In this document: positions 1-63,035 of the stretch, piece by piece
Layout of the letters: each line of letters begins with the position of its first letter
How positions within the stretch are numbered: position 1 is the first letter of the stretch
Source: Lachnospiraceae bacterium
GTDB taxonomy: Bacteria > Bacillota > Clostridia > Lachnospirales > Lachnospiraceae
DNA: 64,000 nucleotides
Direction: 5' to 3'
Assembly (NCBI GenBank): GCA_017626095.1
Contig: JAGAJL010000026.1
Span: 1 to 64,000 of the forward strand
Translations under genes and position numbers: made by a program
Notes under the pieces: generated by a model
The model's input: only the letters and a program-made list of their open reading frames with translations
What the model was told of the DNA's origin: nothing
The model's database searches: none

Positions 1-250
1 TCGTCTTCAAACAGTTGAAACCGGGCATTATTTTTGTTCGCTTATGCCGCTAAGAAATGCCAGAAAACCTCGCTAAATTCCGCGGGCAAAGATATATAAT
101 TTCTGTTAGGGCGACTGGCTATGTCCCCAAAGTTGCGAATAATAAAAAGAGAGAAACGATGGCAGAGAAAAAGTCTGCATCTAAGGTCAAAAACTCCATA
201 TATCACGCTTTCCTCTTATAGATGATGGGAACACAAATCCGAAGAGAGAA
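1..250. repeat. Interspersed nested-palindrome repeat, copy A (half element, cut by window edge)
   Basis: This copy starts inside the central hairpin of the family (a TTGAAACCGGGCAT core near 16-29) and runs out to the family end CACAAATCCG near 233-242. From about 57 onward it matches the right arm of copy B (2350-2538) almost base for base, including GCGGGCAAAGATATATAA and GGCGACTGGCTATGTCCCC. The other arm would lie before the window. It sits downstream of the PFL-family gene, beyond that gene's terminator. No convincing ORF lies in it. Confidence 0.85.
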
Positions 251-255
251 AAATA

Positions 256-298
256 AAAGACAATGGTTTTATGAATTCCACATAAAACTATTGTCTTT
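256..298 (-). terminator. Terminator of the ACT/PFL operon
   Basis: An inverted repeat pairs AAAGACAATGGTTTTATG (256-273) with CATAAAACTATTGTCTTT (281-298), with one internal mismatch and a 7-nt loop. It lies 18 bases past the stop of the minus-strand PFL gene. Read on the minus strand the stem is followed by TATTTT, as expected for intrinsic termination. Confidence 0.8.
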
Positions 299-315
299 AT
301 TATTTATAATATCCC

Positions 316-1692
316 TTAATTTTTAAAACTATGAATCGGTGCCGGAATACGTCCGCCACGATTTACAAAGTTGTCACAAGAGAAAGAATTAACCGGCATA
401 ATCGGTGCATAGCCTAAAAGCCCACCAAATTCAACCGTCTCTCCTACTCCTTTTCCGATAACCGGAATAATACGGACTGCGGTGGTTTTCTGATTAACCA
501 TACCGATAGCCATTTCATCCGCAATCAGACCGGAAATGGTAGTTGCTTTCGTATCGCCCGGGATCGCAATCATGTCAAGACCAACCGAGCAGACACAGGT
601 CATTGCTTCTAATTTTTCCAAGGTAAGACATCCGCATTCCACAGCGTCGATCATACCCTGATCTTCACTGACAGGAATAAAAGCACCACTTAAGCCTCCG
701 ACATAGGAAGATGCCATGACACCACCCTTTTTAACCTGATCGTTTAATAGTGCCAATGCAGCGGTCGTACCGGGAGCACCGGGATGTTCCACCCCGATTT
801 CCGTCAAAATATCCGCAACACTGTCACCCACTGCGGGTGTTGGAGCTAAAGATAAATCGATGATACCAAACGGGATATCGAGCATACGGGATGCTTCTTT
901 TGCCACAAGCTGACCGACACGGGTCACCTTAAATGCGGTCTTTTTAATGGTTTCACAAAGCACTTCAAAATTCTCACCGCGAACCTGTTCCAATGCAGTC
1001 TTAACAACGCCCGGACCGGAAACACCGACATTGATAATCTTGTCGGCCTCGGTTACGCCATGAAAAGCACCTGCCATGAAAGGATTGTCATCCGGTGCAT
1101 TGCAAAATACAACCAGCTTTGCACAGCCTAAAGAATCATTTTCTTTGGTATACTCTGCTGTCTCTTTCACAATCTCACCCATCAACTTAACCGCATCCAT
1201 ATTGATACCGGTCTTAGTCGATCCCAGATTGACGCTGCTACATACAAAGTCCGTTTTACTCAGTGCAAGTGGAATGGAACGAATTAATAATTCATCCGCA
1301 TGGGTCATTCCCTTTGCAACCAAAGCAGAATAACCGCCCAAAAAGTTTACACCGACTTTTTTAGCCGCTTCATCCAATGTAACGGCAATTTCCGCAAAAT
1401 CCTCCGGCGTCTTGCAGGCAGAACCGCCTACTAAAGCAATCGGAGTGACTGAAATTCTCTTATTCACAATCGGAATTCCGAATTCTTTTTCAATCTCCTG
1501 TCCGGTTGCAACCAAATCCTTTGCCGTTTCCGTGATTTTTTTATAAATTTTTTCTTTTAATTTTGAAAGGTCCGAATCAATACAGTCTAACAAACTGATA
1601 CCTAAGGTAATCGTTCTGACATCGAGATTCTCCTTTTCAATCATTTTATTGGTTTCATTAACTTCATGTATATTAATCATATTTTTACCCAT
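316..1692 (-). CDS. PFL family protein (UPF0210/DUF711)
   Basis: The 458-residue protein belongs to the UPF0210/DUF711 family, whose structure resembles glycyl-radical enzymes of the pyruvate formate-lyase type. The biochemical role is not established. Family-like stretches include the [12 protein letters not shown] region near residue 98, [14 protein letters not shown] near 155, and a glycine-rich C-terminal part ([23 protein letters not shown]). Length is usual for the family. The start is supported by AAGG five bases upstream of the ATG. It follows the ACT-domain gene by only 7 bases; this two-gene pair (UPF0237 plus UPF0210) is a widely conserved arrangement, so the ACT protein probably senses a ligand for this protein. 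Family assignment is firm; function is unknown. Confidence 0.9.
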
Positions 1693-1699
1693 TTTAACC

Positions 1700-1972
1700 T
1701 TAGATTCGATGCATCATATCAAAAATATCTTCTCTTTGACATTTTATCACGACTCCGATTTCTTCCCCAAGTGCTGCAAGCGCATCCACAACGGTATCAA
1801 AATCAACATCTGACTGATTGGTATCCACAATCATCATCATATTAAAATAATCCTGAACAATGGTCTGTGAAATATCCAGAATATTGATTTTATGCTCTGC
1901 AAGATACGTACAAACCTTTGCTATGATACCTACAGTATCTTTTCCCACAACGGTAATAATGGCTTTTTTCAT
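1700..1972 (-). CDS. ACT domain-containing protein (UPF0237)
   Basis: This 90-residue protein is essentially one ACT domain. It opens with [19 protein letters not shown], the first strand and the ligand-loop pattern (GKDTVGI) of UPF0237 proteins related to GcvR. ACT domains bind amino acids or similar small molecules and often dimerise. The chosen start is the internal ATG at 1972 because AAAGGAG lies just upstream, while an in-frame ATG 11 codons earlier has no ribosome site. It is the first gene of a two-gene operon with the PFL-family gene, expressed from the promoter at 2012-2040. No ligand can be inferred from sequence alone. Confidence 0.9.
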
Positions 1973-2011
1973 TGGTTTTCTCCTTTGCCTGTATGTTTCT
2001 ACCAATTAATG

Positions 2012-2040
2012 AGTATACCATAATATGATTTTCTTCTCAA
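2012..2040 (-). promoter_or_regulatory. Sigma-70 type promoter of the ACT/PFL operon
   Basis: On the minus strand TTGAGA (2035-2040) is separated by exactly 17 bases from TATACT (2012-2017). This gives a leader of about 35 bases before the ATG at 1972. Confidence 0.75.
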
Positions 2041-2140
2041 TGTTTAGAAGTTTTTTTATTTTCTTTTTTCTCTATTCGCTTTGTTTACATGGAATAATTT
2101 AGATGAAATTTCACATTAAGTTTCTTTATTATTTTTATCC

Positions 2141-2538
2141 CTTTTCGGATTTGTGTTCCCGAAAAAGATGTGCCGAAAGTGCGATATATGGGGTTTTCAG
2201 ACCGATTATGCAGACGCTCTGCCGCGTTTCTCACATAGTTCGCAATCTTTGCGGGATGGCAGTCACCCTTACAAAAATATATATCTTTGTCACTTCACAC
2301 TTCAGTTTTCGGCATTTCTAAGCGGCATGCTCACAAAGTATTTATTAAATGCCAGAAAACCTCGCCCAATTCCGCGGGCAAAGATATATAATTTTTGTTT
2401 GGGCGACTGGCTATGTCCCCAAAGTTGCGAATAATAAAAAGTGAGAAACGATGGCAGAGATAAAAGTCTGCATCTAAGGTCAAAACCCCATATATCGCAC
2501 TTTCGGCACAAATATAGCGGGAACACAAATCCGAAAAG
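2141..2538. repeat. Interspersed nested-palindrome repeat, copy B (longest two-armed copy)
   Basis: This 398-bp palindrome fills the gap between the ACT operon and the DUF4097 gene. Its ends are a perfect 21-bp inverted repeat (2141-2161 and 2518-2538, beginning CTTTTCGGATTTGTG). Inside, GTGCCGAAAGTGCGATATATGG on the left mirrors the region near 2490-2507 on the right, and ATATATATCTTTG near 2277-2289 mirrors CAAAGATATATAA near 2380-2392. The central CCGGGCAT hairpin seen in copies E and G is missing here, replaced by a short junction near 2345-2352. The same short peptide (CRKCDIWGF) can be read from both arms in opposite directions, a by-product of the palindrome and not evidence of coding. 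Confidence 0.9.
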
Positions 2539-2549
2539 AGAACTATTTT

Positions 2550-3395
2550 CTACTTTCTGTAATATTCCCTGCCTTTATCTTTTCCGTTTACCGTTACAAC
2601 ACCCATATCTGCTGATAAATCTAAGGTAAGGTCATCCGGATCTTCTTTCGTTGTCACTGTAACGGAACCCATGGAACAATTAGCCGTCAGCTTCTGAAAA
2701 TCGCCCTCAATTTCAATGCTTCCCATATCAGCATCACATTCTAAGCGGTCGAATGTAGCATTTCTTAATTCTATACTACCCATGTCGGCATCGCATCCGC
2801 CTCTGTCAAAGGCAACTTCATTCATTTCGATATTTCCCATGTCAGCATCAATATCCATTTTAGCAAAAGATATTTGATTTGCTTCGATGTTTCCCATATC
2901 GGCATCAATTGTTAAATCTCCCATACAGATGTCATCCATTTGAATATTTCCCATATCCATGCTCAGATTTACATCTCCGATTTTTGTATCCTTCGGTATG
3001 GTAATCACCAGATCATAATCCATGTCACCAAGCGTACCTATATCTCCAAAACCGAAGTTCACACCGCCATTTCCTTGTTTCTGGTCAATCGTCAAAACAC
3101 CATCGCGTACCTTTACTTCCGGTTTTAATTTTTCAGGATAGTTGTATTCCACCTGATAAGCATCTCCATATACAATTCTCAAATCTCCGACGGCAACATT
3201 TAACATGATATCATCAAATGCTTCAAAATTAAGGACAGTCATTTCATCTGTCTTTTTATAATCTTCGTCAGAAGAAAACCAATGTTTTGCCCTGGAAGTA
3301 TGTCTTACAATTCCATAGATAATACAGCCAATCGTTACCAATGTCAGAATAATTAAATAAATGTTTTTCCACATTTTCAGATTATTGCGTTCCAT
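2550..3395 (-). CDS. DUF4097-family beta-repeat membrane protein
   Basis: The 281-residue protein has one N-terminal membrane segment (about residues 9-28, IYLIILTLVTIGCIIYGIV) and then an extracytoplasmic domain made of about seven repeats of roughly 20 residues built on (D)ADMGNIE or ADMGSIE. This is the adhesin-like beta-helix pattern of DUF4097. The repeats are so regular that they probably stack as one ladder. The start has GGAGGAGAG immediately upstream. It is the last gene of a padR-HAAS-DUF4097 operon, 11 bases after the HAAS gene. Such operons are recognised in Firmicutes as envelope or stress-response modules, but the exact role is unknown. Confidence 0.85.
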   Translation of the reverse strand: MERNNLKMWKNIYLIILTLVTIGCIIYGIVRHTSRAKHWFSSDEDYKKTDEMTVLNFEAFDDIMLNVAVGDLRIVYGDAYQVEYNYPEKLKPEVKVRDGVLTIDQKQGNGGVNFGFGDIGTLGDMDYDLVITIPKDTKIGDVNLSMDMGNIQMDDICMGDLTIDADMGNIEANQISFAKMDIDADMGNIEMNEVAFDRGGCDADMGSIELRNATFDRLECDADMGSIEIEGDFQKLTANCSMGSVTVTTKEDPDDLTLDLSADMGVVTVNGKDKGREYYRK

Positions 3396-3406
3396 CTCTC
3401 TCCTCC

Positions 3407-4420
3407 TTATTCTTTGATTGTAAGATTTGTCTTAATCACAGCATTGATTATCGCTGCAACCGGCCAGATAATCCATGTGATATGCCAGTCAACGCTTAAA
3501 AAGCTCCAAATCAGGTATACACATGTAACAGTCGGCCAGTAAACTTCCATAATGGTTGCAACCGTATCATTAATATAGCGCTCATTTTTCTGATGTTTCA
3601 CATAGTTTCCGCTCACATACTTTTTATCATTCAGTTTTAATAAATCATCATAAGCACCCATAATCATATTATTATGAACAATCATCATGACGCCGATACC
3701 GACAAACACAAACAATAATACAGCTCCGATATTTTCAATTTCCGCCACATTTCCCAAAGGCGATTCATCAATGATCATGGATGGAATCCAGCATAATACA
3801 CAGAGGATAATACCGATAGTCTGACGGATGGCATAGGAGCTACGAAATCTGGATTTCTCACCTTCCAAAACCTGCGCAGTATTATAATCAATCATCCAGG
3901 AAGCATTCTTGATATAATCCCATTTTCCCATCATAATGCCGGAATATACAAACAAAAACACAGCCACACAAATCAAAAGCATCATGCCGGTCACACCAAT
4001 CGCATCCGGCCAGTGAAAAGATGTGGATATAATAGGCATAATCGGTGAAAAAATACAAAACATTACACCGATTGCAACAAAAAATCCATGCTGGATTTTT
4101 GCATCCACAAACTGCTTTGCCTCTTCAAAAGAAAGTGTTTCCTGTGTTGAAAAATACGGTTCATCCGCATACTCGGTCTTTGTACTTTCCTGCTGATATG
4201 AAAACTCTTTTTCCAGTCCCAGCTCTTTTGACAGCTCTTCCAGATTTCCAAATTCCGAAATCACGGTTCCGACTGCTTCATTTTCATTTTTACCCTCATC
4301 TAACAGTTCGTTGTATTTATCCTCCATCATCTGCCAGAGTTCATCTTTTGCCCTGCGCACCTCTGGTGTATTGGGCATTTTTGCAAACATGCTTTCCAAA
4401 TAGCTTTTTAAAGTATTCAT
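3407..4420 (-). CDS. HAAS/DUF1700-like signalling membrane protein
   Basis: The first 80 residues form a soluble helical domain of the HAAS/DUF1700 type (MFAKMPNTPEVRRAKDELWQ, then an EAVGTVISEFGNLEELSKELG segment) that typically pairs with a PadR regulator. A linker follows, then about six hydrophobic segments from residue 112 onward. The start codon abuts the PadR stop (TAG directly followed by ATG), so translation is coupled. Family knowledge supports a PadR-controlled membrane partner. The signal it senses is not known. Confidence 0.8.
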   Translation of the reverse strand: MNTLKSYLESMFAKMPNTPEVRRAKDELWQMMEDKYNELLDEGKNENEAVGTVISEFGNLEELSKELGLEKEFSYQQESTKTEYADEPYFSTQETLSFEEAKQFVDAKIQHGFFVAIGVMFCIFSPIMPIISTSFHWPDAIGVTGMMLLICVAVFLFVYSGIMMGKWDYIKNASWMIDYNTAQVLEGEKSRFRSSYAIRQTIGIILCVLCWIPSMIIDESPLGNVAEIENIGAVLLFVFVGIGVMMIVHNNMIMGAYDDLLKLNDKKYVSGNYVKHQKNERYINDTVATIMEVYWPTVTCVYLIWSFLSVDWHITWIIWPVAAIINAVIKTNLTIKE

Positions 4421-4768
4421 CTATTCTTCCCCTTTCTGAATGAAATGTTCAACAACCTCTTTTGTTAAAATCCATTCCTCACATTTTTCTTCATAATAAG
4501 CTCTACCGTATTCCGTTATACGGTAGTATGTTCTCTTTTTGCCGGAACCACTTTCATCCGGCTCACATACATAGGATTCGATATATCCGTTTTTCTCCAT
4601 TCTGGTAAATGCAGAATACAACGTGGTCTCTTTAATCATATATTTATCCTGCGTCATCTGCCTGATTGTCTTGGAAATCTCATATCCATAAGACGGCTCT
4701 TTTTTCAGGATATACAAAATCATGATATCGTTGTATCCACGAATAACATCGCTACTGATTCCCGCCAT
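4421..4768 (-). CDS. PadR family transcriptional regulator
   Basis: This 115-residue protein is a short-form PadR winged helix: ILYILKKEPSYGYEISKTI is the classic PadR helix pattern, followed by TTLYSAFTRMEKNGYI (recognition region) and the wing GKKRTYYRIT. The ATG at 4768 is preferred over one 10 codons upstream because GAGGAG lies just before it. It is the first gene of the padR-HAAS-DUF4097 operon, and the promoter in front of it carries repeated elements that are good candidates for its own operator, so negative autoregulation is likely. Confidence 0.9.
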   Translation of the reverse strand: MAGISSDVIRGYNDIMILYILKKEPSYGYEISKTIRQMTQDKYMIKETTLYSAFTRMEKNGYIESYVCEPDESGSGKKRTYYRITEYGRAYYEEKCEEWILTKEVVEHFIQKGEE

Positions 4769-4834
4769 AGTCTTCTCCTCTCTTTTCATATTACGCACAT
4801 CGAAGTAGGACTTAGTTCTATTCTTCTCTCTATA

Positions 4835-4906
4835 CTACGTGTGTCGTTGGTACGATAGGCATTGCTATGTCTGTCGTACTATGTCTGTCGTACTATGTCT
4901 GTCGTA
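4835..4906 (-). repeat. Tandem 14-bp repeats at the padR promoter, candidate operator
   Basis: Three perfect, head-to-tail copies of CTATGTCTGTCGTA occupy 4865-4878, 4879-4892 and 4893-4906. A degenerate fourth copy (CTACGTGTGTCGTT) is at 4835-4848. The array begins immediately downstream of the -10 box and covers the expected transcription start, where a bound repressor would block transcription. A palindrome ATAGCA-T-TGCTAT (4914-4926) sits in the promoter spacer, and a close relative (ATAGGCATTGCTAT, 4855-4868) lies at the far side of the array. Confidence 0.75.
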
Positions 4907-4909
4907 GTA

Positions 4910-4938
4910 AATATAGCATTGCTATTTTGTGTTGTCAA
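4910..4938 (-). promoter_or_regulatory. Promoter of the padR operon
   Basis: On the minus strand a perfect TTGACA (4933-4938) is followed after exactly 17 bases by TATATT (4910-4915). The spacer is almost filled by the 13-bp palindrome at 4914-4926, and the tandem repeats begin just downstream. The leader to the ATG at 4768 is about 135 bases. Confidence 0.85.
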
Positions 4939-5011
4939 CATGTTTTTCATAGAAACTATTTTTTTTACTAAAACTGTTTGTGTTATTGATATGCATCTGC
5001 TTATGTTATTA

Positions 5012-5025
5012 GAAACAATTGTTTC
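5012..5025. promoter_or_regulatory. Palindrome GAAACAATTGTTTC upstream of the padR promoter
   Basis: A perfect 14-bp palindrome lies about 75 bases upstream of the padR -35 box. Near-copies of its half-site (TAGAAACTAT) flank it at about 4950 and 5032. It could be a binding site for a second regulator. It lies in the padR-radical SAM gap and has no coding function. Confidence 0.4.
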
Positions 5026-5046
5026 ATAAGATAGAAACTATTATGA

Positions 5047-5083
5047 TAAAAAATGGTACTCTCCATAATCGGAAAGTACCATT
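5047..5083 (-). terminator. Terminator downstream of the radical SAM gene
   Basis: AATGGTACT (5052-5060) pairs with AGTACCATT (5075-5083). On the minus strand the stem is followed by TTTTTTATC. It lies 55 bases past the stop of the radical SAM gene, so it probably ends that transcript. Confidence 0.75.
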
Positions 5084-5137
5084 CTGCCTTTTTCTAATAT
5101 TAAATAACTTATTTACCTTAAATGCCTTATTTATTTT

Positions 5138-6025
5138 TTAACCTTTTGAACCAAGAGCACTATCCAATTTTTTATGAAGCGCATTCAGTACACGCTTTTT
5201 ATCCGCACTCCAAAGCGGTGCAATCAATAACGATTTGGGACCGTCACCGGTTAAGCGGTGTACCACCATATCCGGTGGCAACAGTTTCGCACATTCCGCC
5301 ACCAGATCCATATATTCCTCAAACTCCATAGTTTTAAATAAACCATTTTGATAGTCTTTTGCCAGATCCGTATTTTTTAACACATGTAAAAGTTGCAGTT
5401 TTATTCCTTTGCTCTTTTGTAAAACAACATGACGGACACTCGCCAGCATGTCTTCTTTTGTTTCTTCGGGAAGACCTAGAATAATATGCGTAATCGTATG
5501 AATTCCGATTGCATTTAAATCACATATTGCCTTATCATAAACGGCAAGCTGATAACCACGTCGGATATAATCAGCCGTTTTTTCATGGATGGTCTGTAAC
5601 CCAAGTTCTACCCACACCGGTTTGATTTGATTTAATTCATCTAACAACGCAAGGACTTTGTCTGATAAACAGTCCGGTCTGGTAGCAATTGACAAAACTG
5701 CAATATCGTCTCTGTTGATAACCGGTATAAAGATTTGGCGGAGCGTTTCAACGGGAGCATAGGTATTGGTATATGCCTGAAAATAGGCAATATATTTATC
5801 TCCTTTATATTTGGCAGACACTTTCTCCTTTGCCTCGTCGATCTGGTCTTCTATCGGTTTATTCCGGTTTGGGGTAAAATCTCCCGAACCTCCTGCTGAA
5901 CAGAAAATACATCCACGTGTATCAAGTGTTCCGTCCCGGTTTGGACAAGTCATTCCACCATCTAAACTGAGCTTATATAGTTTTTGACCAAATTGTTGTC
6001 TACAGTATTCATTAACAGTAAGCAT
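5138..6025 (-). CDS. TIGR01212-family radical SAM protein (YhcC-like)
   Basis: This 295-residue protein carries the radical SAM cluster motif in the TIGR01212 form: CPNRDGTLDTRGCIFC near residues 27-42, followed by SAGGSGDF. Further family segments are IAYFQAYTNTYAP, the SIATRPDCL motif, WVELGLQT, and GLPEET. Radical SAM enzymes use the iron-sulfur cluster to cleave S-adenosylmethionine; the substrate of YhcC-type proteins is not settled. Length matches the family. GGAGAG sits upstream of the ATG. Transcription probably ends at the terminator at 5047-5083. Family assignment is firm. Confidence 0.9.
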   Translation of the reverse strand: MLTVNEYCRQQFGQKLYKLSLDGGMTCPNRDGTLDTRGCIFCSAGGSGDFTPNRNKPIEDQIDEAKEKVSAKYKGDKYIAYFQAYTNTYAPVETLRQIFIPVINRDDIAVLSIATRPDCLSDKVLALLDELNQIKPVWVELGLQTIHEKTADYIRRGYQLAVYDKAICDLNAIGIHTITHIILGLPEETKEDMLASVRHVVLQKSKGIKLQLLHVLKNTDLAKDYQNGLFKTMEFEEYMDLVAECAKLLPPDMVVHRLTGDGPKSLLIAPLWSADKKRVLNALHKKLDSALGSKG

Positions 6026-6064
6026 ATGCTAACTCTCCACAAACAGATTTTTCTGGTGCAACTC

Positions 6065-6820: not shown

Positions 6821-6905
6821 TGGGGGTTCTTTTATCTTTTTTGTTCTATATCATTTTGAGTTCCATTAGCAGTCATGCTATTTACAATTCCATTGCCAAT
6901 AATCT

Positions 6906-6946: not shown

Positions 6947-7018
6947 ATTTCAATTCTTAATATGTATCAAATTATCAAATAATGAATGAATTTGTAATCT
7001 TTGGAAAATAATCTATTT

Positions 7019-15985: not shown

Positions 15986-16159
15986 CTTACTACCTCTTTC
16001 TTTTGCAGTGACAATGCACTGTTATTCTTCTCAATTATCATTCGCGTTTTCAATTCCGCTTTCTTTTCTACTATACTATTTTTTTGATATTTTTTCTATA
16101 AATTCGTGCAAAAAATACATACTTTTCTTATATGTACAGATTTATTGATGGATTTTGTT
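15986..16159. other. Divergent intergenic region upstream of rnfC
   Basis: This A/T-rich stretch must contain the rnf promoter reading left. A short hairpin, CAGTG pairing with CACTG, lies around 16001-16016 in the leader. I see candidate -10 boxes around TAGTATAGTAG on the minus strand but no well-spaced -35, so none is assigned. Confidence 0.4.
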
Positions 16160-16310
16160 TCAGACAGTTGAAACCGGGCATTCATTTTGTTCGCCATGCC
16201 GCTAAGAAAAACACAAAAACTCGTAAAAGCCAGCGGAAAAAGATATATATTTCTGCATGGACGACTTGTGTTCCTCAAAGATTATGAACTATGTAAGAAA
16301 CAAAGACAAA
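16160..16310. repeat. Interspersed nested-palindrome repeat, copy C (half element)
   Basis: The copy begins CAGACAGTTGAAACCGGGCAT, the family centre, then shows TTGTTCGCCATGCCGCTAAG, AAAAAGATATATATTTCTG and the outer part GACGACTTGTGTTCC. The left arm is absent, as in copy A. It is the only copy in the window that lies between divergently transcribed genes (rnfC and yprB). Confidence 0.8.
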
Positions 16311-34178: not shown

Positions 34179-34318
34179 TATTTTCCCTGTGTATTTATCA
34201 AAATATGATGAAATGCCCCAAAGCATAATTTGCACTTTCTTTATGAAATGAAACATTGTAAATACAATGCCATATAACTATAGTATTCTATTATCCGATT
34301 TTTTTCAAAATATTTTAT

Positions 34319-34560
34319 TCGCTTTTCGGATTTGTGTTTCCAATATATATCTTTGTCCGCCGGCTTTTACGAGGTTTCGTGTCTTTCTTAGCGGCATAAG
34401 CAAACAAAAGTAATGACCGGTTTCAACTGTTTGAAGACGAAGTCTGAGTTTTGAAACCGGTCATTTAATAATACTTTGTGAGCATGCCGCTTAGAAAGTC
34501 TAGAAACCGAAGTACGAGGCGGCAAAGATATATATTGGGAACACAAATCCGAAAAGGGAC
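34319..34560. repeat. Interspersed nested-palindrome repeat, copy D (compact two-armed copy)
   Basis: Outer ends CTTTTCGGATTTGTGTTTCC (34322-34341) and GGGAACACAAATCCG (34537-34551) face each other; inside, AATATATATCTTTG and CAAAGATATATATT pair, then GCGGCAT/ATGCCGC, and the centre is AATGACCGGTTTCAAC with GTTTTGAAACCGGTCATT. The centre uses GACC/GGTC in place of the GCCC/GGGC of other copies, so both arms changed together. A 9-bp direct repeat ATATTTTAT flanks it (34310-34318 and 34561-34569), possibly a target-site duplication. It follows the oadA-like operon terminator. Confidence 0.9.
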
Positions 34561-34568
34561 ATATTTTA

Positions 34569-34603
34569 TAAAAAAGGCCGCCCATGCATCATGGACGACC
34601 TTT
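34569..34603 (-). terminator. Terminator of the decarboxylase operon
   Basis: AGGCCGCCCATG (34575-34586) pairs with CATGGACGACCT (34590-34601), complete if G-U pairs are allowed, with a three-base loop. On the minus strand it ends in TTTTTT. It lies about 40 bases past the oadA-type stop. Confidence 0.9.
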
Positions 34604-34640
34604 GTCTCTTACGAGTAGTTTTTTATAATAAGCAATGAAC

Positions 34641-36080
34641 TTATACCGGATAAGCTCCGTTAGCTGTATCAGCTTTTGTTAAATCTACTTTTTCCTGCTG
34701 AGCTTTACGATATTTGAAGAAATCTGCAGCAACCTGAGGGAATAATGCATAAGATAATACATCTTCTTCCTGCTGAGGTTCAAATCCCTTTTCAATCATT
34801 TCAGCCTTAATTGATTCAAGCTCGGGCTCTGTATGTCCGGTAGCTTCTGCAGAACGTGCTGTAGAACGTTTCTCTCCCGGAATTACTTTGTTGATAACTT
34901 CTTCGTTCATAGGTTTTACGGTCTGACCATAGTTACCACGAAGCAAGTCTTTGAATTCTCCGGTAGCCATCTTGTATCTTTCACCCATTAATACGTTGAA
35001 GATAGCCTGTGTACCAACAATCTGAGATGAAGGTGTAACAAGCGGAGGCTCACCACAGTCTTTACGTACTCTAGGGATTTCTTCCAATACTTCCTGGAAT
35101 TTATCTTCTGCATGCTGTTCTTTTAACTGGCTAACCATGTTAGAAAGCATACCGCCGGGTACCTGATACAGTAATGTCTTGATATTAACACCAAGAACTT
35201 TGGTAGATAATAATCCGTTTGCTAAACATTCTTCTCTGTAAGGTGCAAAGTAATTAGCGATTTCAGCAAGTAAGTTCTGGTCATATCCTGTATCATAAGG
35301 AGTTCCGCGGAATGCTTCAACCATAACTTCTGTTGCAGGCTGTGATGTACCTAATGCTAAAGGTGACATTGCACAGTCGATGACATCAACACCGGCTTCT
35401 ACTGCTTTTAAATAAGTCATGGAAGCAACACCGGATGTATAATGTGTGTGTAACTGAATCGGAAGCTTGGTAGACTCTTTTAATGTCTTAACGAGTTCTT
35501 CTGCTTTGTAAGGAACCAAAAGGCCTGCCATATCTTTGATACAGATAGAATCTGCACCCATTTCTTCGATATCTTTTGCCATTTTTGCCCAATACTCAAG
35601 TGTATAAGCATCACCTAATGTATAAGAAAGGGCGATCTGAGCATGTCCTCTTCCTTCGCGCTGTTTAATCTTGTTTGTTGCATCAACTGCAGCCTGTAAG
35701 TTACGGATATCATTTAAGCAGTCGAAAATACGAATGATATCAATACCGTTTGCAATTGATTTTTCAACGAATGCATATACAACATCATCAGCATAAGGTC
35801 TGTAACCTAAGATGTTCTGACCACGGAATAACATCTGAAGAGGTGTATTTTTACATTTGTCTTTGATTTTTCTCAATCTGTCCCAAGGATCTTCTTTTAA
35901 GAAACGAAGGGAAGCATCAAATGTAGCACCGCCCCAGCACTCTAATGAGTTATATCCGACCTGATCCAGCTTATCCAGAATAGGAAGCATAAAATCGGTA
36001 GGCATTCTGGTTGCGATCAATGACTGATGTGCATCACGTAATATAGTTTCCGTAATTTTTACGGGTTTCTGTTCTGCCAT
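34641..36080 (-). CDS. oadA: Oxaloacetate decarboxylase/pyruvate carboxyltransferase alpha subunit (no biotin domain)
   Basis: This 479-residue protein is a 5S/pyruvate-carboxylase-type carboxyltransferase: ITETILRDAHQSLIATRM near residue 9, LECWGGATFDASLRFL near residue 53, then HTHYTSGVASMTYLKA and DVIDCAMSPLALGTSQPATE holding the metal and carboxyl sites. It stops at NGAYPV without a biotinyl domain, which is instead supplied by the separate carrier gene. The start at 36080 is chosen because the ATG five codons upstream lies inside the GGAGG ribosome site. It is the last gene of the operon, after the multi-hairpin element, and precedes a strong terminator. Confidence 0.93.
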   Translation of the reverse strand: MAEQKPVKITETILRDAHQSLIATRMPTDFMLPILDKLDQVGYNSLECWGGATFDASLRFLKEDPWDRLRKIKDKCKNTPLQMLFRGQNILGYRPYADDVVYAFVEKSIANGIDIIRIFDCLNDIRNLQAAVDATNKIKQREGRGHAQIALSYTLGDAYTLEYWAKMAKDIEEMGADSICIKDMAGLLVPYKAEELVKTLKESTKLPIQLHTHYTSGVASMTYLKAVEAGVDVIDCAMSPLALGTSQPATEVMVEAFRGTPYDTGYDQNLLAEIANYFAPYREECLANGLLSTKVLGVNIKTLLYQVPGGMLSNMVSQLKEQHAEDKFQEVLEEIPRVRKDCGEPPLVTPSSQIVGTQAIFNVLMGERYKMATGEFKDLLRGNYGQTVKPMNEEVINKVIPGEKRSTARSAEATGHTEPELESIKAEMIEKGFEPQQEEDVLSYALFPQVAADFFKYRKAQQEKVDLTKADTANGAYPV

Positions 36081-37446: not shown

Positions 37447-37815
37447 TTAGTTTAATGTAGCAAGAACGGTACCTGCATCAACTGCATCACCTACAGAAAC
37501 ATTGATACTTGCTACAGTACCATCTTCAGGAGCAACCTGGGGAATTTCCATCTTCATAGCTTCCAGAATTAATACGGTATCACCTTTTTTCACTGCCTGT
37601 CCTACAGAAGCTTCTACTTTAAATACTTTACCTGCTGCGCCGGCTTCAATCTTAATTCCGCCTGCTGCACCACTTGCTGCAGGTGCTGCGGGAGCTGCCT
37701 TAGGTGCTGCTTTGGGAGCTGCCTTGGGAGCTGCTGCGGGAGCGCCTGTAGAAGCGCCTTCTTCTACTACTACATCATATACGTTGCCATTAACGGTAAT
37801 GGTATAATTTTTCAT
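37447..37815 (-). CDS. Biotin carboxyl carrier subunit
   Basis: The 122-residue carrier has a short N-terminal strand region, a linker very rich in Ala, Pro and Lys (about residues 24-50), and a biotinyl domain at 52-122. The biotinylation motif EAMKMEIPQ is at about residues 85-93; the central Lys carries biotin. It shuttles the carboxyl group between the transferase subunits and the membrane pump. It sits 18 bases after the gamma subunit gene and 43 before oadB. Gene name in these operons varies (mmdC or gcdC), so no symbol is given. Confidence 0.94.
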   Translation of the reverse strand: MKNYTITVNGNVYDVVVEEGASTGAPAAAPKAAPKAAPKAAPAAPAASGAAGGIKIEAGAAGKVFKVEASVGQAVKKGDTVLILEAMKMEIPQVAPEDGTVASINVSVGDAVDAGTVLATLN

Positions 37816-40198: not shown

Positions 40199-41521
40199 TT
40201 ATTGTGATAAAAACTCTTGTAAAATATAGCATTTCAAGACTTTATCCAAACAATACCGATATGTATATTTCCCAACACTGTTTTTTACCTTGATTGGAAA
40301 TACCTTATAGACTTCATCATTGATATAGATTTTTTCATATCCGACAATCTCGTTTTTTTGAACCGGTGCAGTCAGACAATCCTTCATTTCACACTCTGTT
40401 TTTACCTTATCCCAGTCTGCCAGCAGACAGGAAACATCCTCTTTTTCCATATATAGCTCCGCTTCATCTTCGATTCCGTCCAAAACCGCCAGACTTTCCG
40501 GGATCTCTTCCTGTTCAATTTCACGATACCGGTAATTCTCTATCCCATAATTCATCATAGCTTTTGTATCTACCCATTTATAATTTTTGTGGGGTGGCCA
40601 GCCACTGGCCAAAACAACCGAAACCAGTTTGATGCCGTCTCGCTCGACTGCTCCCACAAAACAGTACCCGGCTTTATTGGTAAATCCGGTCTTAATTCCG
40701 ATTGCACCAGACATCATATCCAAAAACCGATCTTTATTATTCACTGTAAAGCTTCTTTGCGTAGTCAGTTCGCAAAAAGACGCACTTCTTGTAGCAATCA
40801 GTTCATCAAACTCCGTATTTTGAATGGCATAGGCAGCTATCTTTGCCAGTTCATATGCCGTCGTAGAATGTTGTTTTCCGTCTACTTCAGCGTCCAGTCC
40901 GTTTGGGGTAATAAAAAAAGTCTGGCTGCACCCCAAATCCCTTGCCTTCTGATTCATCATCTGTGCAAATCCTTCCACACTCTGTCCGATATGCTCTGCA
41001 ATTGCAACAGCAGAATCATTGTGCGACTCCAACATGAGGGATTTCATTAAATCTTTTAAATAATACTGTTCTCCTTCCCGCATGCCAAGATGAACCTTGG
41101 GCATGGATGCTGCTTTTTTGGATACGGTTACCACATCATCCGGATTTCCGTTTTCTAATGCTATGATTGCTGTCATAATTTTGGTTGTAGACGCCATGGG
41201 CATAATCTGATCTGCGTTTTTTTCATATAAAATACGATTGTTGGTTGCATCCAATAAAACTGCGGAAAGTGCATAGAGTTTTACTTCCGGTTGTTCTGCT
41301 TTACTCTCTGCCTGCTCCGGTTCACTCTCTGTCTGCTCTAGTTCTATCTCTGCCTGCTCGATATTACTCTCTGTCTGCTCCAATTCATACTCTGTCTGCT
41401 CAACATTCGTTAATTTCATCTTATTTTCCACCACATAATCGTTTGCCCAGACAGATGTTGGGACATAGAGAAAAAAAATAAGATTTAAAAAAAGAAAAAA
41501 GCTCAAAAAAAGAAATTTCAT
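40199..41521 (-). CDS. D-alanyl-D-alanine carboxypeptidase (DacF-like) with repeat spacer
   Basis: A secreted 440-residue penicillin-binding protein that trims pentapeptides of peptidoglycan. The signal peptide MKFLFLSFFLFLNLIFF begins at 41521, where AGGAAAAG precedes the ATG; the longer upstream start is less likely. Residues 33-80 form a Glu/Gln-rich tandem repeat. Active-site motifs are complete: STTK (MASTTKIMTAII), SHN (ESHNDSAVAIAEH) and KTG (IGIKTGFTNKAGY). It follows scpB by 89 bases. A second such enzyme lies at 43978-45132. Confidence 0.92.
   Translation of the reverse strand: MKFLFLSFFLFLNLIFFLYVPTSVWANDYVVENKMKLTNVEQTEYELEQTESNIEQAEIELEQTESEPEQAESKAEQPEVKLYALSAVLLDATNNRILYEKNADQIMPMASTTKIMTAIIALENGNPDDVVTVSKKAASMPKVHLGMREGEQYYLKDLMKSLMLESHNDSAVAIAEHIGQSVEGFAQMMNQKARDLGCSQTFFITPNGLDAEVDGKQHSTTAYELAKIAAYAIQNTEFDELIATRSASFCELTTQRSFTVNNKDRFLDMMSGAIGIKTGFTNKAGYCFVGAVERDGIKLVSVVLASGWPPHKNYKWVDTKAMMNYGIENYRYREIEQEEIPESLAVLDGIEDEAELYMEKEDVSCLLADWDKVKTECEMKDCLTAPVQKNEIVGYEKIYINDEVYKVFPIKVKNSVGKYTYRYCLDKVLKCYILQEFLSQ
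41291..41403 (-). repeat. In-frame tandem repeat in the dac gene
   Basis: Units such as CTCTGTCTGCTC or CTCTGCCTGCTC recur about every 15-30 bases. On the coding strand they give repeats of the form EQTES, EQAE and EQAES near residues 35-70 of the carboxypeptidase. It forms a charged spacer between the signal peptide and the catalytic domain. Unit number could vary by slippage. Confidence 0.7.
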
Positions 41522-45132: not shown

Positions 45133-45205
45133 ATTTTCTAATCCGCATTTTATTTTGTTACTACTATCTTAATCTGCCGATAGGAAAAATATGCCCCTTT
45201 CTCAT

Positions 45206-45500
45206 TTTTTATGATTCACAACTTTGAGAACATAGCTTGGGAATATAGCAAGTCGACCTTACAAAAATTGATATCTTTGCCCGCCGGCTTTTACGAGGTT
45301 TTGTGACTTTCTTAGTGGCATGGCGAACAAAATGGAATGCCCGGTTTCAACTGTCCGAAGACGAAGTCTGAGTTTTGAAACCGGGCATTTAATAATATTT
45401 TGTGAGCATGCCGCTTAGAAAGTCTAAAAACCGAAGTATGAGGCGACAAAGATATCAATTTCTGTAAGGACGACTTGCATCCCGCAAAGGGAATCATAAA
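45206..45500. repeat. Interspersed nested-palindrome repeat, copy E (two-armed copy)
   Basis: Arms meet at a centre with CCGGTTTCAACTG on one side and TTTTGAAACCGGGCATT on the other (45351-45390). AAGTCGACCTTACAAAAATT (45250-45269) mirrors the region around 45448-45475 with two differences, and TTTTTTATGATTC at the left edge mirrors GAATCATAAAAAAG at the right edge. In this copy both arms carry AAATTGATATC/GATATCAATTT where other copies have AATATATATC/GATATATATT, so both arms changed together. It lies between the second carboxypeptidase and rpsU, just past the rpsU terminator. Confidence 0.9.
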
Positions 45501-45528
45501 AAAGACACCCGGCTTTATACCGAGTGTC
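45498..45528 (-). terminator. Terminator of rpsU
   Basis: GACACCCGG (45504-45512) and CCGAGTGTC (45520-45528) form a nine-base stem with one mismatch and a seven-base loop, followed on the minus strand by TTTTTT. It lies 12 bases past the rpsU stop. Confidence 0.92.
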
Positions 45529-45829: not shown

Positions 45830-45917
45830 CTGTTTTTTCCGGTATAACACGAAAAAATGTAGAAAAACTTGGAAAAAATCATCGTCACATCATGACAATC
45901 ACTTACATTCCAATCCC

Positions 45918-45946
45918 TTCTCCGATTTGTATTTCCGGAAAGAGTA
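45918..45946. repeat. Small remnant of the palindromic repeat family
   Basis: CTTCTCCGATTTGTATTTCCGG resembles the outer end of copies B and D (CTTTTCGGATTTGTGTTCCCG) with a few changes. It is alone here, without a partner arm, downstream of the alaS stop. It may be decayed or coincidental. Confidence 0.4.
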
Positions 45947-51036: not shown

Positions 51037-51080
51037 CCTTTTTGGATTTGTGTAATGACCGGTTTCAAAACTCAGACTTC
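51037..51080. repeat. Interspersed repeat family, copy F (short deletion derivative)
   Basis: CCTTTTTGGATTTGTG, the outer end of the family, is joined directly to TAATGACCGGTTTCAAAACT, the centre of copy D. All the arm between them is missing, so this is a deletion derivative about 44 bp long. It uses the GACCGG version of the centre, as copy D does. It lies just past the recO stop. Confidence 0.7.
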
Positions 51081-57239: not shown

Positions 57240-57387
57240 AATTATTATCCCGTTTTCTATTTTATAGTTCTAAATCATATCCATCCATTTCCTGATATAT
57301 CCTTTTATCATTCTGATAACTGTTATAGCAAATCAACAACACTTCGTTATCTTTTATCATTGAATATCAGGAAGCTTTCAAGATGTT

Positions 57388-58308
57388 TTATCCTTCATTT
57401 TTGACATGCGTATGCGTATAAATATGCTTTGAGCAGTATTCGTAGTTGCCATCGCATTTTGAGCAGAAACGGAAGGTTTCATCCGGATCACTCTCTTCGG
57501 TTCTTCCACAGATGGCACATTTGTGTCTGGTAATATTTTTGGGGCGCATGGCACGTTTTTGAAACTCTCTCTGCCGCTTTATCTGTGTAGGCGTTCGGAA
57601 ACTCTTCCTTGTTACAATAAAGAACACAAGTACATTAAACAAGGAAAACAGAATAACCGTTGCCATCACGATTCCATAAAATACATTGGATGCAAACGCG
57701 GAAAAAATCGTATATGCCATAATGGCCACATAAAATATTCCAAGCACCTTGGCTTTAATCGGAATGACAAACATAAATAACATCTGCGAATCCGGAAATG
57801 TCATGGCGAATGCCAAAAAAATCGACATACTGATGTAATACGTACTAAACATCGAAGAGTAACCTGATGAAAAGGTCTTTAATAACTCGGCTCCTCCCAG
57901 AAAACCTGCTCCGAGTGACTGACCAAAAATCCAGATAAACAGATACAGAATAACCGCACCGATAATCGTAAAGATAACTCCCATGAACATGAATACATTG
58001 TAGCGGAAAGTTCCCCACGTACGCTCTAATAACGTACCGATGCTGAAATAGCAATACAACATCACAAGTGTAAATAAATCAAAACCTCCCGGCGGTATTA
58101 ACAGCCAGGTAAAAAGTCTCCAGATTTGTCCATGCAGGATGGCATATATATCCAATGTCATATAACTCATCAGACCACTCATCGCCGGATTGTAAAGTGA
58201 TGCAAGCTGAAGCAGATAACCAATGGCATAGCATATGATTAAATAGAATGTCAGATTTGGTATCGCGTATTTTCCGTATTTTTGTTCTAATTTTGTAAAC
58301 CACAACAT
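57388..58308 (-). CDS. Rhomboid-like membrane protein with C-terminal Cys cluster (probably inactive)
   Basis: About six membrane helices and the rhomboid-type landmarks (IWRLFTWLLIPP near residue 62, LLERTWGTFRYNVFM near residue 92) place it in the rhomboid superfamily. The protease signature GxSG and the His of the catalytic dyad are not visible in the expected helices (FLGGAELLKTF is in place of GxSG), so it is likely a non-proteolytic member like iRhom or Derlin. The tail carries KCAICGRTEESDPDETFRF then CSKCDGNYEYCSKH, probably a zinc ribbon. AGGTAG precedes the ATG. Confidence 0.75.
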   Translation of the reverse strand: MLWFTKLEQKYGKYAIPNLTFYLIICYAIGYLLQLASLYNPAMSGLMSYMTLDIYAILHGQIWRLFTWLLIPPGGFDLFTLVMLYCYFSIGTLLERTWGTFRYNVFMFMGVIFTIIGAVILYLFIWIFGQSLGAGFLGGAELLKTFSSGYSSMFSTYYISMSIFLAFAMTFPDSQMLFMFVIPIKAKVLGIFYVAIMAYTIFSAFASNVFYGIVMATVILFSLFNVLVFFIVTRKSFRTPTQIKRQREFQKRAMRPKNITRHKCAICGRTEESDPDETFRFCSKCDGNYEYCSKHIYTHTHVKNEG

Positions 58309-58428
58309 ATAACTACCTCGATATATCCATTTTTTACATACTGTTTTATTTTATCATGCCCTTTTTTTTGTGTAAACAATGGACGAAAAATTTTCATTTT
58401 CTTTATAATTTATTAAGACTTTGCACAA
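58309..58428. other. Divergent intergenic region, left part
   Basis: This A/T-rich stretch separates the divergent rhomboid-like gene and the activase gene. It must hold a promoter for the rhomboid-like gene (minus strand), but I found no clear consensus pair. No ORF or RNA gene is evident. Confidence 0.4.
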
Positions 58429-58457
58429 TTGAACTTTTGATTTTCCTGTCGTATAAT
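58429..58457 (+). promoter_or_regulatory. Sigma-70 type promoter of the activase gene
   Basis: TTGAAC (58429-58434) is followed after exactly 17 bases by a perfect TATAAT (58452-58457). The leader is about 90 bases and contains a small hairpin, CAACA-ACC-TGTTG near 58492-58504. Confidence 0.85.
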
Positions 58458-58554
58458 ATCAAAGTGTGTCAATACATATTATAAATAAGAAACAACAACC
58501 TGTTGTATTTGCAGCATTTTGTATCTTTCAAGATATATTAAGGAGAGACTAAAA

Positions 58555-61500
58555 ATGAGCGAGCAAACATATACCTTGGGAATCGATATCGGTTCCACAA
58601 CCGTAAAAATTGCGATCTTAAATGAACAAAAGGACATTATTTTTTCAGATTATAAAAGACATTTTGCCAATATCCAGGAAACCCTTTCGGATTTATTAAA
58701 GGAAGCTGTTACCAAACACGGAAATCTTATTGTCAATCCCATGATTACCGGTTCCGGTGGCCTGACTTTGGCGAATCACTTAGGCATTCCCTTTACACAG
58801 GAAGTCATTGCCGTATCTTCTGCCCTGCAAAAAGAAGCACCTCAGACAGATGTTGCTATCGAACTTGGCGGCGAAGATGCCAAAATCATTTATTTTGAAG
58901 GCGGTAATATCGAACAGCGAATGAACGGAATTTGTGCAGGCGGTACCGGTTCCTTTATCGACCAGATGGCTTCTTTACTGCAGACTGATGCCACAGGCTT
59001 AAATGAGTATGCCAAAAAATATCAGTCTCTTTACACCATAGCTGCCCGTTGTGGCGTTTTTGCCAAAACAGATATCCAGCCGTTAATCAATGACGGTGCC
59101 ACACGTGAAGATTTAGCGGCATCGATTTTTCAGGCGGTTGTTAACCAGACGATATCCGGTTTGGCATGTGGTAAACCGATTCGCGGTCATGTTGCATTTT
59201 TAGGCGGTCCGCTACATTTCTTATCCGAATTAAAGGCTGCCTTTATCCGCACACTGAAGTTGGACGATGAACATATCATCGCACCCTCCCATTCCCATCT
59301 GTTTGCTGCCATCGGCTCTGCTCTCAACGCAAAACCGGATGTTTCTTTTTCTTTGGAAGATATGGCAAACAAACTATCCATGGGCATCAAAATGGAATTT
59401 GAAGTTGAGCGTTTGGATCCCTTATTTGAAGATGAAGATGATTATCAGGCTTTTGTTTCCCGCCATCAGCGTGATCAGGTAGGCACTGCTAATTTGAAGG
59501 ATTATCACGGAAACTGCTATCTTGGTATTGACGCCGGTTCTACCACCACCAAGCTTGCTTTGATTGGCGAAAACGGACAACTTCTTGATTCTTTTTACAG
59601 CAGTAATAACGGTAATCCATTAGCGACCGCTATCTCTGCAATTTGTGGAATTTATCAAAAGCTTCCTGCCGGCACGAAAATTGTCCATTCCTGTTCAACC
59701 GGTTATGGCGAAGCTCTCATGAAAGCGGCTTTCTTATTGGATGAAGGGGAAGTGGAAACGGTTGCCCATTATTATGCTGCTGCATTCTTTTCTCCTGACG
59801 TGGATTGCATTCTGGATATCGGCGGCCAGGACATGAAATGCATCAAAATTAAAAATCATACGGTAGACAGCGTGCAGTTAAATGAAGCATGCTCATCCGG
59901 ATGCGGTTCCTTTATCGAAACCTTTGCACATTCTTTAAATTTCAGTGTCCAGGATTTCGCAAAAGAAGCGCTTTTTGCAAAGCATCCGATTGATTTAGGT
60001 ACACGTTGCACCGTTTTTATGAATTCCAAAGTAAAACAGGCGCAAAAAGAAGGTGCTTCCGTTGCTGATATCTCAGCCGGACTTGCATATTCTGTCATAA
60101 AAAATGCGTTGTTCAAAGTCATAAAAGTATCCGACGCTTCCGAACTTGGCAAAAAAATCGTAGTACAGGGCGGAACCTTCTACAACGATGCCGTTCTGCG
60201 TAGCTTTGAAAAAATTGCAGACTGCGAGGCTGTCAGACCGGATATTGCCGGTATTATGGGAGCTTTTGGTGCTGCTCTCATTGCAAAAGAGCGCTATCAT
60301 GAAAAGAAAACGAAAATGTGCGGCAATCTCGAAAAAGAGACCACTATGCTCTCCTACGAGAAAATCCAGGCTTTAGAGTACACAACACGTATGGCAAAAT
60401 GTCGTGGATGCACCAACAACTGTCGTCTGACCATCAACCAGTTTTCCGGTGGCCGCCAGTACATATCCGGTAACCGCTGTGAAAAAGGCATTGGCAAAGA
60501 AAAGAATGCCAACCATTTACCAAACCTTTTCGAATACAAAAACCGAAGATATTTTGACTATGAACCGCTTCCCGCCGATATGGCAAAACGCGGTGAGGTC
60601 GGAATTCCCCGTGTACTGAATATGTATGAAAACTATCCTTTCTGGTTTACGTTTTTCACCAAATTAAAGTACAGGGTTATTCTATCCCCTCAGTCAACAC
60701 ATAAAATATATGAGCTTGGAATCGAATCCATTCCGAGTGAATCAGAATGTTATCCGGCTAAATTAGCACACGGTCATGTTACATGGCTGATCAGACAAGG
60801 TGTAAAATACATCTTCTATCCTGCCCTTTTCTATGAGCGTGATGAGGTAGAGGGAGCAACCAATCATTACAATTGTCCGATTGTAACCTCCTATTCGGAG
60901 AATATCAAAAACAATGTTGAGGAAATTGGAAGCGGGGATATCAAATTCCAAAATCCCTTTATGAGTTTTAAAAATGAAGAAACCATTTTACAGGGGCTTG
61001 TAAAATCCTTCCCCGATATTCCGTTATCCGAATTAAAGGAAGCCATTCACGCCGGATTTACGGAGCTTGCCTCTGCGCGTGATGATATGCGTAAAAAAGG
61101 AGAAGAAACCTTAAAGTATCTCGAAGAAACCGGACGACGCGGTATTGTTTTGGCGGGACGTCCTTACCATATTGATCCTGAGATTAATCATGGCATTCCG
61201 GAATTAATTAATTCTTACGATATAGCCGTTTTAACAGAAGACAGCATTTCTCATCTTGGAAAACCGGAACGTCCGCTCATCGTTTCCGATCAGTGGATGT
61301 ATCACTCCAGATTATATGCTGCAGCTGCTTTTGTCCGTACCCGTGAAAATCTGGATTTAATACAATTAAACTCCTTTGGCTGCGGTCTTGATGCCGTTAC
61401 AACGGATCAGGTTAACGATATCCTTTCCGGTTCCGGCAAGATTTATACCTGCTTAAAAATTGACGAAGTCAACAATTTAGGCGCTGCACGTATTCGTGTC

Positions 61501-62811
61501 AGATCATTAATTGCCGCTCTTCGTGTCAAAGAACAGAAAAAAGAAAAATGTGAAATTCATTCCACTGCCATGAATCGTGTGATATTTACCGAGGAAATGC
61601 GTAAGAACTATACGATTCTTTGTCCACAAATGTCTCCGATTCATTTTGACGTCCTGCAATCCGCATTTGCCTCTGCCGGATACCATTTTGAGGTCATTCC
61701 AGAAAACAACCGGCATGCTGTGGACACCGGCTTAAAATATGTCAATAATGATGCCTGCTATCCTTCTTTAATTGTTGTGGGGCAAATCATGAATGCATTA
61801 AATTCCGGCAGGTATGATCTCAATAAAGTCGCTGTCATGATCACACAGACAGGCGGCGGATGCCGTGCAACCAACTACATTGGTTTCATACGTCGTGCGT
61901 TAGCAAAAGCTAACTTGGAGCACATTCCCGTTATCTCATTAAATCTCGGTGGTATTGAAACAAATCCCGGCTTTAAGATTGATGCAAATCTGGCACTGCG
62001 TGTGGCATATGCTGCTGTCTTTGGTGATTTGTTCATGCGATGCTTATACCGGATGCGTCCGTATGAAAAAGTAAAAGGGGAAGCAAATGCAGTTCATGAA
62101 AAGTGGCTGAAAAGATGTCAAACTTTTGTATCCCAAAAGCATCCTTCTTTCTTTACATTCCAGAAAATGTGTAAAGAAATCGTAGAAGAATTTGATCGTA
62201 TTCCGATTACGGACGAAAAGAAACCCCGTGTCGGTATTGTCGGAGAAATCCTGGTTAAATTTTTGCCGGAGGCAAATAACCACCTCGCAGAGCTTTTAGA
62301 AGCAGAAGGAGCCGAAGCTGTATGCCCCGACTTAATTGACTTTTTAATGTACTGCTTCTACAACCAGATTTACAAAGCGGATAACCTTGGAACCTCCAAA
62401 AAATCAGCCCGCAACGCCAGACTTGGCATTTATGCCGTTAACTTCTTTAGAAGCGCCGGCGCAAAGGCACTAAAACTAAGTAAACACTTTGATCCTCCCG
62501 CCAATATTTTCGACTTGGTTGACTATGCAAAGGATATTGTATCCATCGGTAACCAGACCGGTGAAGGCTGGTTTTTAACCGGAGAAATGTTAGAGTTAAT
62601 TCACTCCGGCACACCCAACATTGTATGTACACAACCCTTTGGCTGTCTTCCTAATCACATTGTCGGCAAAGGTGTCATCAAAGCTCTTCGCAAGCAATAT
62701 CCGGACAGCAACATTGTTGCCATCGATTATGATCCCGGTGCCAGCGAAGTCAATCAGTTAAACCGTATTAAGCTCATGCTCTCAACGGCTTTTAAAAACC
62801 TGGAGCAATAG
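58555..62811 (+). CDS. 2-hydroxyacyl-CoA dehydratase activase, large (BcrA/BadF-type with DUF2229)
   Basis: This 1418-residue protein joins two ASKHA ATPase domains, DUF2229 and a dehydratase-like end. Domain 1 (residues 1-270) has [13 protein letters not shown], the iron-sulfur loop [15 protein letters not shown] and [11 protein letters not shown]; domain 2 (310-580) has [24 protein letters not shown] and [17 protein letters not shown] Cys cluster ([11 protein letters not shown]) near residue 615 leads to DUF2229 and an HgdB-like tail with [13 protein letters not shown] and [13 protein letters not shown]. Such activators supply high-energy electrons to 2-hydroxyacyl-CoA dehydratases; the dehydratase subunits are not in the window. 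The ATG at 58555 has AAGGAG upstream. Confidence 0.93.
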
Positions 62812-62839
62812 TTTGATTTTGTAGCAAATATATATATAA

Positions 62840-63035
62840 ATAATGCCCGGTTTTAACTGTCTGAAGACGAAGTCTGAGTTTTGAAACCGGGCATTTAATA
62901 TTTATTTGTGAGCATGCCGCTTAGAAAACCGAAGTATGAAGCGACAAAGATATATATTTCTGTTAGGGCGACTGCCATCCCGCAAAGATTGCGAACCTTA
63001 TGAGAAGCGTGGCAGAGCGTCTGCATAATCTAATT
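62840..63035. repeat. Interspersed nested-palindrome repeat, copy G (centre plus right arm)
   Basis: The central hairpin AATGCCCGGTTTTAACTG / TTTTGAAACCGGGCATT spans 62843-62895. The right arm follows with GAGCATGCCGCTTAGAAA, GACAAAGATATATATTTCTG, CCCGCAAAGATTGCGAAC and GGCAGAGCGTCTGCAT. That arm mirrors the left arm of copy B nearly base for base. The left arm is missing. It lies between the convergent ends of the activase and galE genes, where it may act as a two-way terminator. Confidence 0.88.

Follow-up and report, generated by a model that had tools for sequence, protein, structure and literature searches.

The question raised here is what keeps the two arms matched in a family of nested palindromes found in a stretch of 64,000 nucleotides (nt) from a Lachnospiraceae bacterium (NCBI GenBank assembly GCA_017626095.1, contig JAGAJL010000026.1); this stretch, called the window in the following, comprises bases 1–64000 of contig C46 of the draft genome G000 (2.74 Mb). 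An initial annotation, made from the letters alone, had listed seven copies or fragments and offered two explanations, either a conserved RNA or DNA hairpin or a non-autonomous mobile palindrome with mutual correction of its arms. Of these, the latter fits best; we put at roughly 0.7 the probability that the repeat is a non-autonomous mobile near-palindrome, similar to miniature inverted-repeat transposable elements (MITEs), with mutually recopied arms and a flipping interior. Such an element would insert into AT-rich intergenic DNA with a short (~9-bp) target duplication, and the enzyme that moved it may be gone. During replication the strand copying one arm would switch to the other, by which a mutation in one arm would be copied to its partner and the interior could invert in place; palindrome-stimulated slippage would delete centres or layers and so yield short forms, hybrids and 30-nt stubs.

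A functional RNA or DNA structure is usually proved by covariation, which here is strong, lacks a clear RNA-strand signature and is accompanied by in-place inversions. The family is thus a warning and, since close relatives supply many natural replicates, a test bed for telling selection and template switching apart.

A dispersed family of near-palindromes

Full forms are near-palindromes of 235 nt (short) or ~480 nt (long) with ends CCCTTTTCGGATTTGTGTTCCC. In short forms this 22-nt outer end is joined directly to the ATATATCTTTG layer, and long forms carry ~110–125 nt extra in each arm; the long consensus (485 nt) folds as a single hairpin. Compared copy by copy, all seven stretches of the initial annotation carry the repeat, its list lacking a 30-nt stub. 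The features in the window are as follows:

1–255, minus strand: copy A, part of a long form, cut by the contig start
2138–2541, minus strand: copy B, long form that keeps both outer ends but has lost its central hairpin
16159–16301, minus strand: copy C, part copy, with a fuller counterpart at the corresponding position of G003
34310–34318, no strand: left target duplication ATATTTTAT of copy D
34319–34560, plus strand: copy D, intact short form, 242 nt
34561–34569, no strand: right target duplication ATATTTTAT of copy D
45198–45502, plus strand: copy E, without recognisable outer ends
45914–45943, no strand: stub of 30 nt, outer ends alone, common to G000, G003 and G008
51039–51080, no strand: copy F, short fusion of outer end and a piece of the core
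62836–63035, plus strand: copy G, part copy with core and one long-type arm

Copy A is 91–92% identical to intact long forms (C12:6290–6780 and C35:70042–70521); its truncation is not biological, because the window starts at base 1 of the contig. Five G000 contigs (C18, C22, C46, C48, C51) start inside a copy, which indicates that the repeat breaks assembly and that copy counts are lower bounds; the genomes are draft metagenome-assembled genomes (MAGs). Copy B is absent from the orthologous interval of G003, and the copy E locus has the same orientation in G008 and is partly deleted in G003.

The search for further copies, proposed as a possible refutation, found many. A 281-base query from copy D gave 63 matches in the G000 genome (40 of 166 first-look candidates scored), and the outer-end 16-mer TTTTCGGATTTGTGTT gave 91 at up to two mismatches, versus two for the reversed control. 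The 353 kb of sequence fetched, a set chosen around matches, contained 84 repeat clusters, and a further 452 kb contained 85. On long continuous pieces there were 9 in 169 kb (G000, C46), 6 in 102 kb (G003, C11) and 38 in 877 kb (six contigs of G008), a density of one copy per 17–23 kb, which would correspond to ~130–170 copies per genome if evenly spread. G000 holds about a hundred or more copies, and two MAGs of the same genus (G003, G008) are similarly rich. The carriers are uncultured bacteria of the gut.

Among 61 genomes searched (own, same genus, family and order), matches were found solely in G000, G003 and G008, and not in the 58 others, six members of the same genus among them. Of 397 family genomes, 4 contained the 19-base end at one mismatch: G000 had 44 occurrences, G008 had 34 and two others had one each (G003 was outside this draw). 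A collection scan with a core 25-mer gave at least 77 stretches; the matches listed fall in three MAGs, namely RGIG406 (dairy cattle colon; matches G003), SRR11489746 bin.3 (matches G008) and SUG1497 (one stretch). The last of these (G431), a fourth holder, yielded a single copy from a sample of 320,990 bases; among the genomes and matches listed, the repeat is confined to the three genomes of one genus and this further MAG. In literature searches confined to open-licence PMC papers, none of the titles or abstract openings returned names the family.

The arms change together after species have split

Covariation was assessed on alignments with shuffled and slid-partner controls rather than with a covariance model. 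For G000, 41 of 42 copies were aligned (one, cut by a contig edge, was dropped); 25 of 66 pairs had double changes, versus 6.7 in shuffles and 4–7 with slid partners, and double-change cells numbered 96, versus 18.7 in shuffles. A larger set of 104 copies, each covering positions 48–195 of copy D at ≥76% and distinct by inner sequence, had 129 Watson-Crick pairs changed on both sides, the shuffles having a mean of 22 and a maximum of 33 (300 shuffles). The arm differences thus go beyond chance, the other test that the initial annotation had set. Both places at which it had seen the arms covary hold up: for the centre, GCCC/GGGC versus GACC/GGTC (pair 82/127), 30 of the 41 copies have C-G and 11 have A-U, with no intermediate (two among the 104), and where copy E has ATTGATATC/GATATCAAT, a sister species has ATTTATATC/GATATAAAT at this locus.

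As shared ancestry of paralogues can inflate covariation, orthologues were compared. At 17 orthologous loci diverged by at most 10% (1412 pairs), double changes numbered 22 of Watson-Crick type and 3 of other kinds, compared with ~3 expected in all under independence; slid partners gave 0–2 Watson-Crick ones. These loci are 17 of 23 orthologue groups, the flanks defining which can include arms; one group of ten, mostly long-form, and five that were identical or more than 10% diverged were dropped. A looser count (32 pairs, 100-nt flanks, diverged ones included), which gave 89 double Watson-Crick and 49 other double changes versus 44.6 expected for both kinds together, was replaced by the stricter one. 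L218 and L091 show several differences in the layer that adjoins the core on its outer side, each mirrored in the opposite arm. Since the double changes arise after the species split, symmetry is being restored. Long-form arms differ by bulges that are shared among long forms; arm exchange is therefore local, not total.

The interior inverts in place

With flanks taken beyond the arms, from 180 nt outward of the core, 38 orthologous pairs matched on both sides: in 27 the core has the same orientation, in 11 it is inverted. By our grouping of these pairs, the interior is inverted at 8 of 24 loci; the count excludes 7 pairs that matched on a single flank or had an odd pattern. When six inverted pairs were aligned in flank orientation, the interior was reversed, and most pairs retained the outer arms and junctions. 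L092/L247 and L127/L185 each share truncation or divergence of their outer parts, and the partners of L136/L236 have an unusual variant in common at one end; these shared peculiarities make a second insertion in opposite orientation unlikely there.

Template switching between inverted repeats yields arm homogenisation together with spacer inversion, as far as PMC8604942 describes it, and both were found here between close relatives. We infer that template switching, rather than RecA recombination, is the agent. An unlikely alternative, though the strongest of those weighed, is that the element is the same mobile one and that RecA-type recombination or a site-specific invertase matches its arms and flips its interiors. 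In its favour, the outer arms form inverted repeats tens of bases long; against it, the break points lie near the ATATATCTTTG layer in L127/L185 and further out in L143/L196, and this variation between loci speaks against a single recombinase or invertase site, not against RecA exchange.

Arm symmetry as a probable property of DNA

A second alternative is a structured RNA or 3′-end hairpin, kept paired by selection and spread within transcripts. The strong covariation favours it, as do the bulges common to long forms and the tip, which by eye is the most conserved part, more so than the arms. Genomic setting also lends it something: 36 of 82 copies with two callable neighbours sit between convergent genes. 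Of the same 82, 68 have the 3′ end of a gene on at least one side (another 12 copies were overlain by short open reading frames that are probably spurious). The earlier statement that the copies lie just past gene 3′ ends is therefore borne out as a tendency of the family, the seven copies of the window not being judged singly. Also in favour of an RNA, if common variants are counted, G-T cells exceed A-C cells (204 versus 90), mostly in a few pairs.

Against an RNA, rare one-sided mismatches are G-T (63) and A-C (49) in similar number (p = 0.22); a tally from the 17 loci (40 versus 22) was set aside, as RNA folding rules favour G-T. Double transversions, which cannot pass through a G-U pair, make up 6 of the 22 double Watson-Crick changes (27%), a share similar to that among one-sided changes (20 of 82, 24%), so that they are as frequent as single changes predict. 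Pair 82/127 is either C-G or A-U among the 41 copies and nothing between, interiors flip in place, and the core has no preferred orientation relative to tandem neighbour genes (15 same, 17 opposite). Rfam gave no matches in the window, the best score in 34200–34700 being 13 bits versus a cut-off of 100. Arm symmetry hence looks like a property of DNA and not clearly of one RNA strand; with no clear strand bias, RNA selection is not needed for the covariation. Lacking an Rfam match, a significant excess of G-U over A-C and an orientation preference, the conserved-RNA alternative of the initial annotation has no support beyond the covariation and the conserved tip, and we consider it improbable.

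Insertion and the missing mover

Insertion polymorphism is seen at copy D, for which G008 has a clean empty site and which is flanked on both sides by the 9-bp ATATTTTAT. C11:10497 is a second clean empty site, its duplication worn; the site of the copy at C18:304427, the flanks of which are ATTATTTGT and ATCATTTAT, is likewise empty in G008. The target-duplication signal of the C11 and C18 copies is weaker than that of copy D. Eight small gaps between orthologues were found, the six besides the two clean ones being remnants or ambiguous, and 102 of 110 orthologous comparisons are filled, which shows that most insertions are old. At one further locus, G008 (L124, C3) has an empty site that by eye looks like a terminator hairpin, and L180 (G003) and L018 (G000, C24:76190) carry different element forms within it; this may be an insertion hot spot.

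A transposase is the probable mover. The ISLre2 family makes a 9-bp duplication, for which PF06782 was chosen as a candidate; it is absent from G000 and G008, and the locus of its single copy in G003 has no good match to the repeat ends, so that an ISLre2-type parent was rejected. A 4.3-kb end pair on C15 was also rejected as the parent, with no transposase recognised between the ends; it is read as two neighbouring part copies. Y1 transposases are absent from G000 and G008, and G003 has one.

This last result bears on the REP-like link that had been suggested. Repetitive extragenic palindromic (REP) sequences and REPINs are moved by a Y1 transposase (REP-associated tyrosine transposase, RAYT), and Y1 transposition is not expected to leave a target duplication. 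Our repeat is similarly palindromic, intergenic and high in copy number, and its 30-nt stubs are REP-sized; unlike the REP/REPIN systems, as far as PMC3733652 describes them, it has no RAYT link, its full forms (235–480 nt) are much longer, and a target duplication is seen at copy D. Movement by a RAYT is accordingly very improbable. Just as remote is an ordinary old MITE family with a symmetry merely inherited from a symmetric ancestor, for although most insertions are old, the double changes postdate the species split.

Several points weigh against a self-recopying mobile element. Two of the eight inverted loci (L180/L018 and L214/L229) also differ in type, short against long, and could represent separate insertions, and some inversions could be draft assembly errors. 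The conserved tip hints at some constraint, and among all cells, common variants included, G-T is in excess. Target duplications are not significant across the family: of 66 end pairs, 5 reach the score (two of them mutually orthologous), and shuffles average 1.6 and reach 6 at most. Wear of the flanks would account for the shortfall, which is a weak point all the same. No transposase was recognised between the ends of the seven end pairs lying 0.7–4.5 kb apart in the examined sequence, and only two transposase families (Y1, PF06782) were sought across whole genomes. The earlier remark that no transposase is nearby stands to this extent, the window itself being without a gene-by-gene transposase scan.

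Reduced forms at loci common to several species

Classing of 100 copies gave 34 short/short, 6 long/long, 1 short/long and 2 with middle-length arms, which makes 43 that keep the terminal inverted repeat on both sides; 18 have one recognisable outer end and 39 have none. The end-less copies stop at variable points, for which reason E-type copies were rejected as a separate element with ends of its own.

The 30-nt stub corresponds to the start of the long form fused with its far end at a common CCGAAAA, and another stub (C46:138481) lies opposite a much larger, itself incomplete copy in G003. The D locus is empty in G008, holds a 142-nt deleted form in G003 and 242 nt in G000. In the G008 copy at C24:60831, the left arm is short and the right one long; G000 and G003 are short/short at this locus, with the core flipped in G000; this hybrid is what a half-finished type change would look like. 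The smaller forms, the stub included, look like deletion products, for which slippage would be the cause.

Relation to known repeats

Bacterial MITEs such as QMITE2 of Coxiella and Chunjie of Geobacter are reviewed in PMC10969869. The features given there are shared by the present family: the elements are short and non-autonomous, target AT-rich intergenic DNA, have inverted ends, form hairpins and leave truncated REP-like derivatives, and QMITE2 has direct repeats of 7–9 bp, compared to 9 bp at copy D. Unlike QMITE2 and Chunjie as described in that source, the palindrome here spans the whole element in nested layers, the arms co-evolve and the interior flips; also unlike in MITEs, no parent insertion sequence was found in the examined sequence or, for the two transposase families, genome-wide.

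ERIC/IRU and Correia/NEMIS are imperfect-palindrome intergenic repeats with internal insertions and deletions. By description, the present repeat resembles them in being an imperfect, intergenic palindrome; it is set apart by its larger size (235 or ~480 nt) and by arm homogenisation and inversion.

Repeats homogenised by template switching, as presented in PMC8604942 and PMC8794818, are short single inverted repeats in yeast genes and stems of RNA genes. They share with our family the copying of arms onto each other, spacer inversion and multi-base compensatory change; unlike them, the family is dispersed and mobile, with an invertible interior of well over 100 nt. The components are already known, and the combination, the scale and the natural replication are unusual.

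Palindrome persistence and SbcCD

The family offers a natural setting for asking how long palindromes persist in bacterial chromosomes, and whether loss of SbcCD permits their build-up. As reported in PMC4245961, SbcCD of E. coli cuts a perfect chromosomal palindrome of 460 bp, which kills the cell. SbcD scored over its cut-off in five copy-free congeners (G002, G004–G007) and not in the copy-rich G000, G003 and G008 or in the copy-free G001; two of the three copy-rich carriers are 99–100% complete. For SbcC, the best E-values were ≤3e-39 in G002 and G004–G007, and 2e-4 or nothing in G000, G001, G003 and G008, with no match reaching the curated cut-off. Across the family, 108 of 150 genomes passed the SbcD cut-off, G000 and G008 being among the 42 that fail. 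A build-up of palindromes permitted by SbcCD loss is a lead only. That G001 is without SbcCD yet free of copies, that 42 of 150 family genomes fail, and that SUG1497 has both SbcD (177.6 bits) and a copy, weighs against a causal link, as do the mismatches and bulges that the copies carry, unlike a perfect palindrome. The genes neighbouring the SbcCD region, where a deletion scar was sought, differ between genomes. That the family represents a self-symmetrising palindromic MITE with mutually recopied arms and a repeatedly flipping interior, built up to more than 100 copies in a lineage without the hairpin nuclease SbcCD and decaying to 30-nt palindromes, and with that a route from transposon to REP-like sequence, is a tentative proposal which we regard as rather doubtful.

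Other repeats

A second dispersed repeat (CAGGGTCAAAAGGTCATAC, CATGAAAAAGTATGAC, AAGTGCGTAGCAATCCGTTG) has 5–12 matches per motif in the examined G000 sequence, with none for reversed controls; its sites include C46:80327, C46:96524, C3:13124, C3:16442, C6:25584 and others in G000, and it also occurs in G003 and G008, with none in the window. Some of its copies adjoin palindromes, but most of the examined G000 sequence was chosen around palindromes. The window itself contains short tandem repeats of 21 and 12 nt at 41277–41401 and 37681–37760, respectively.

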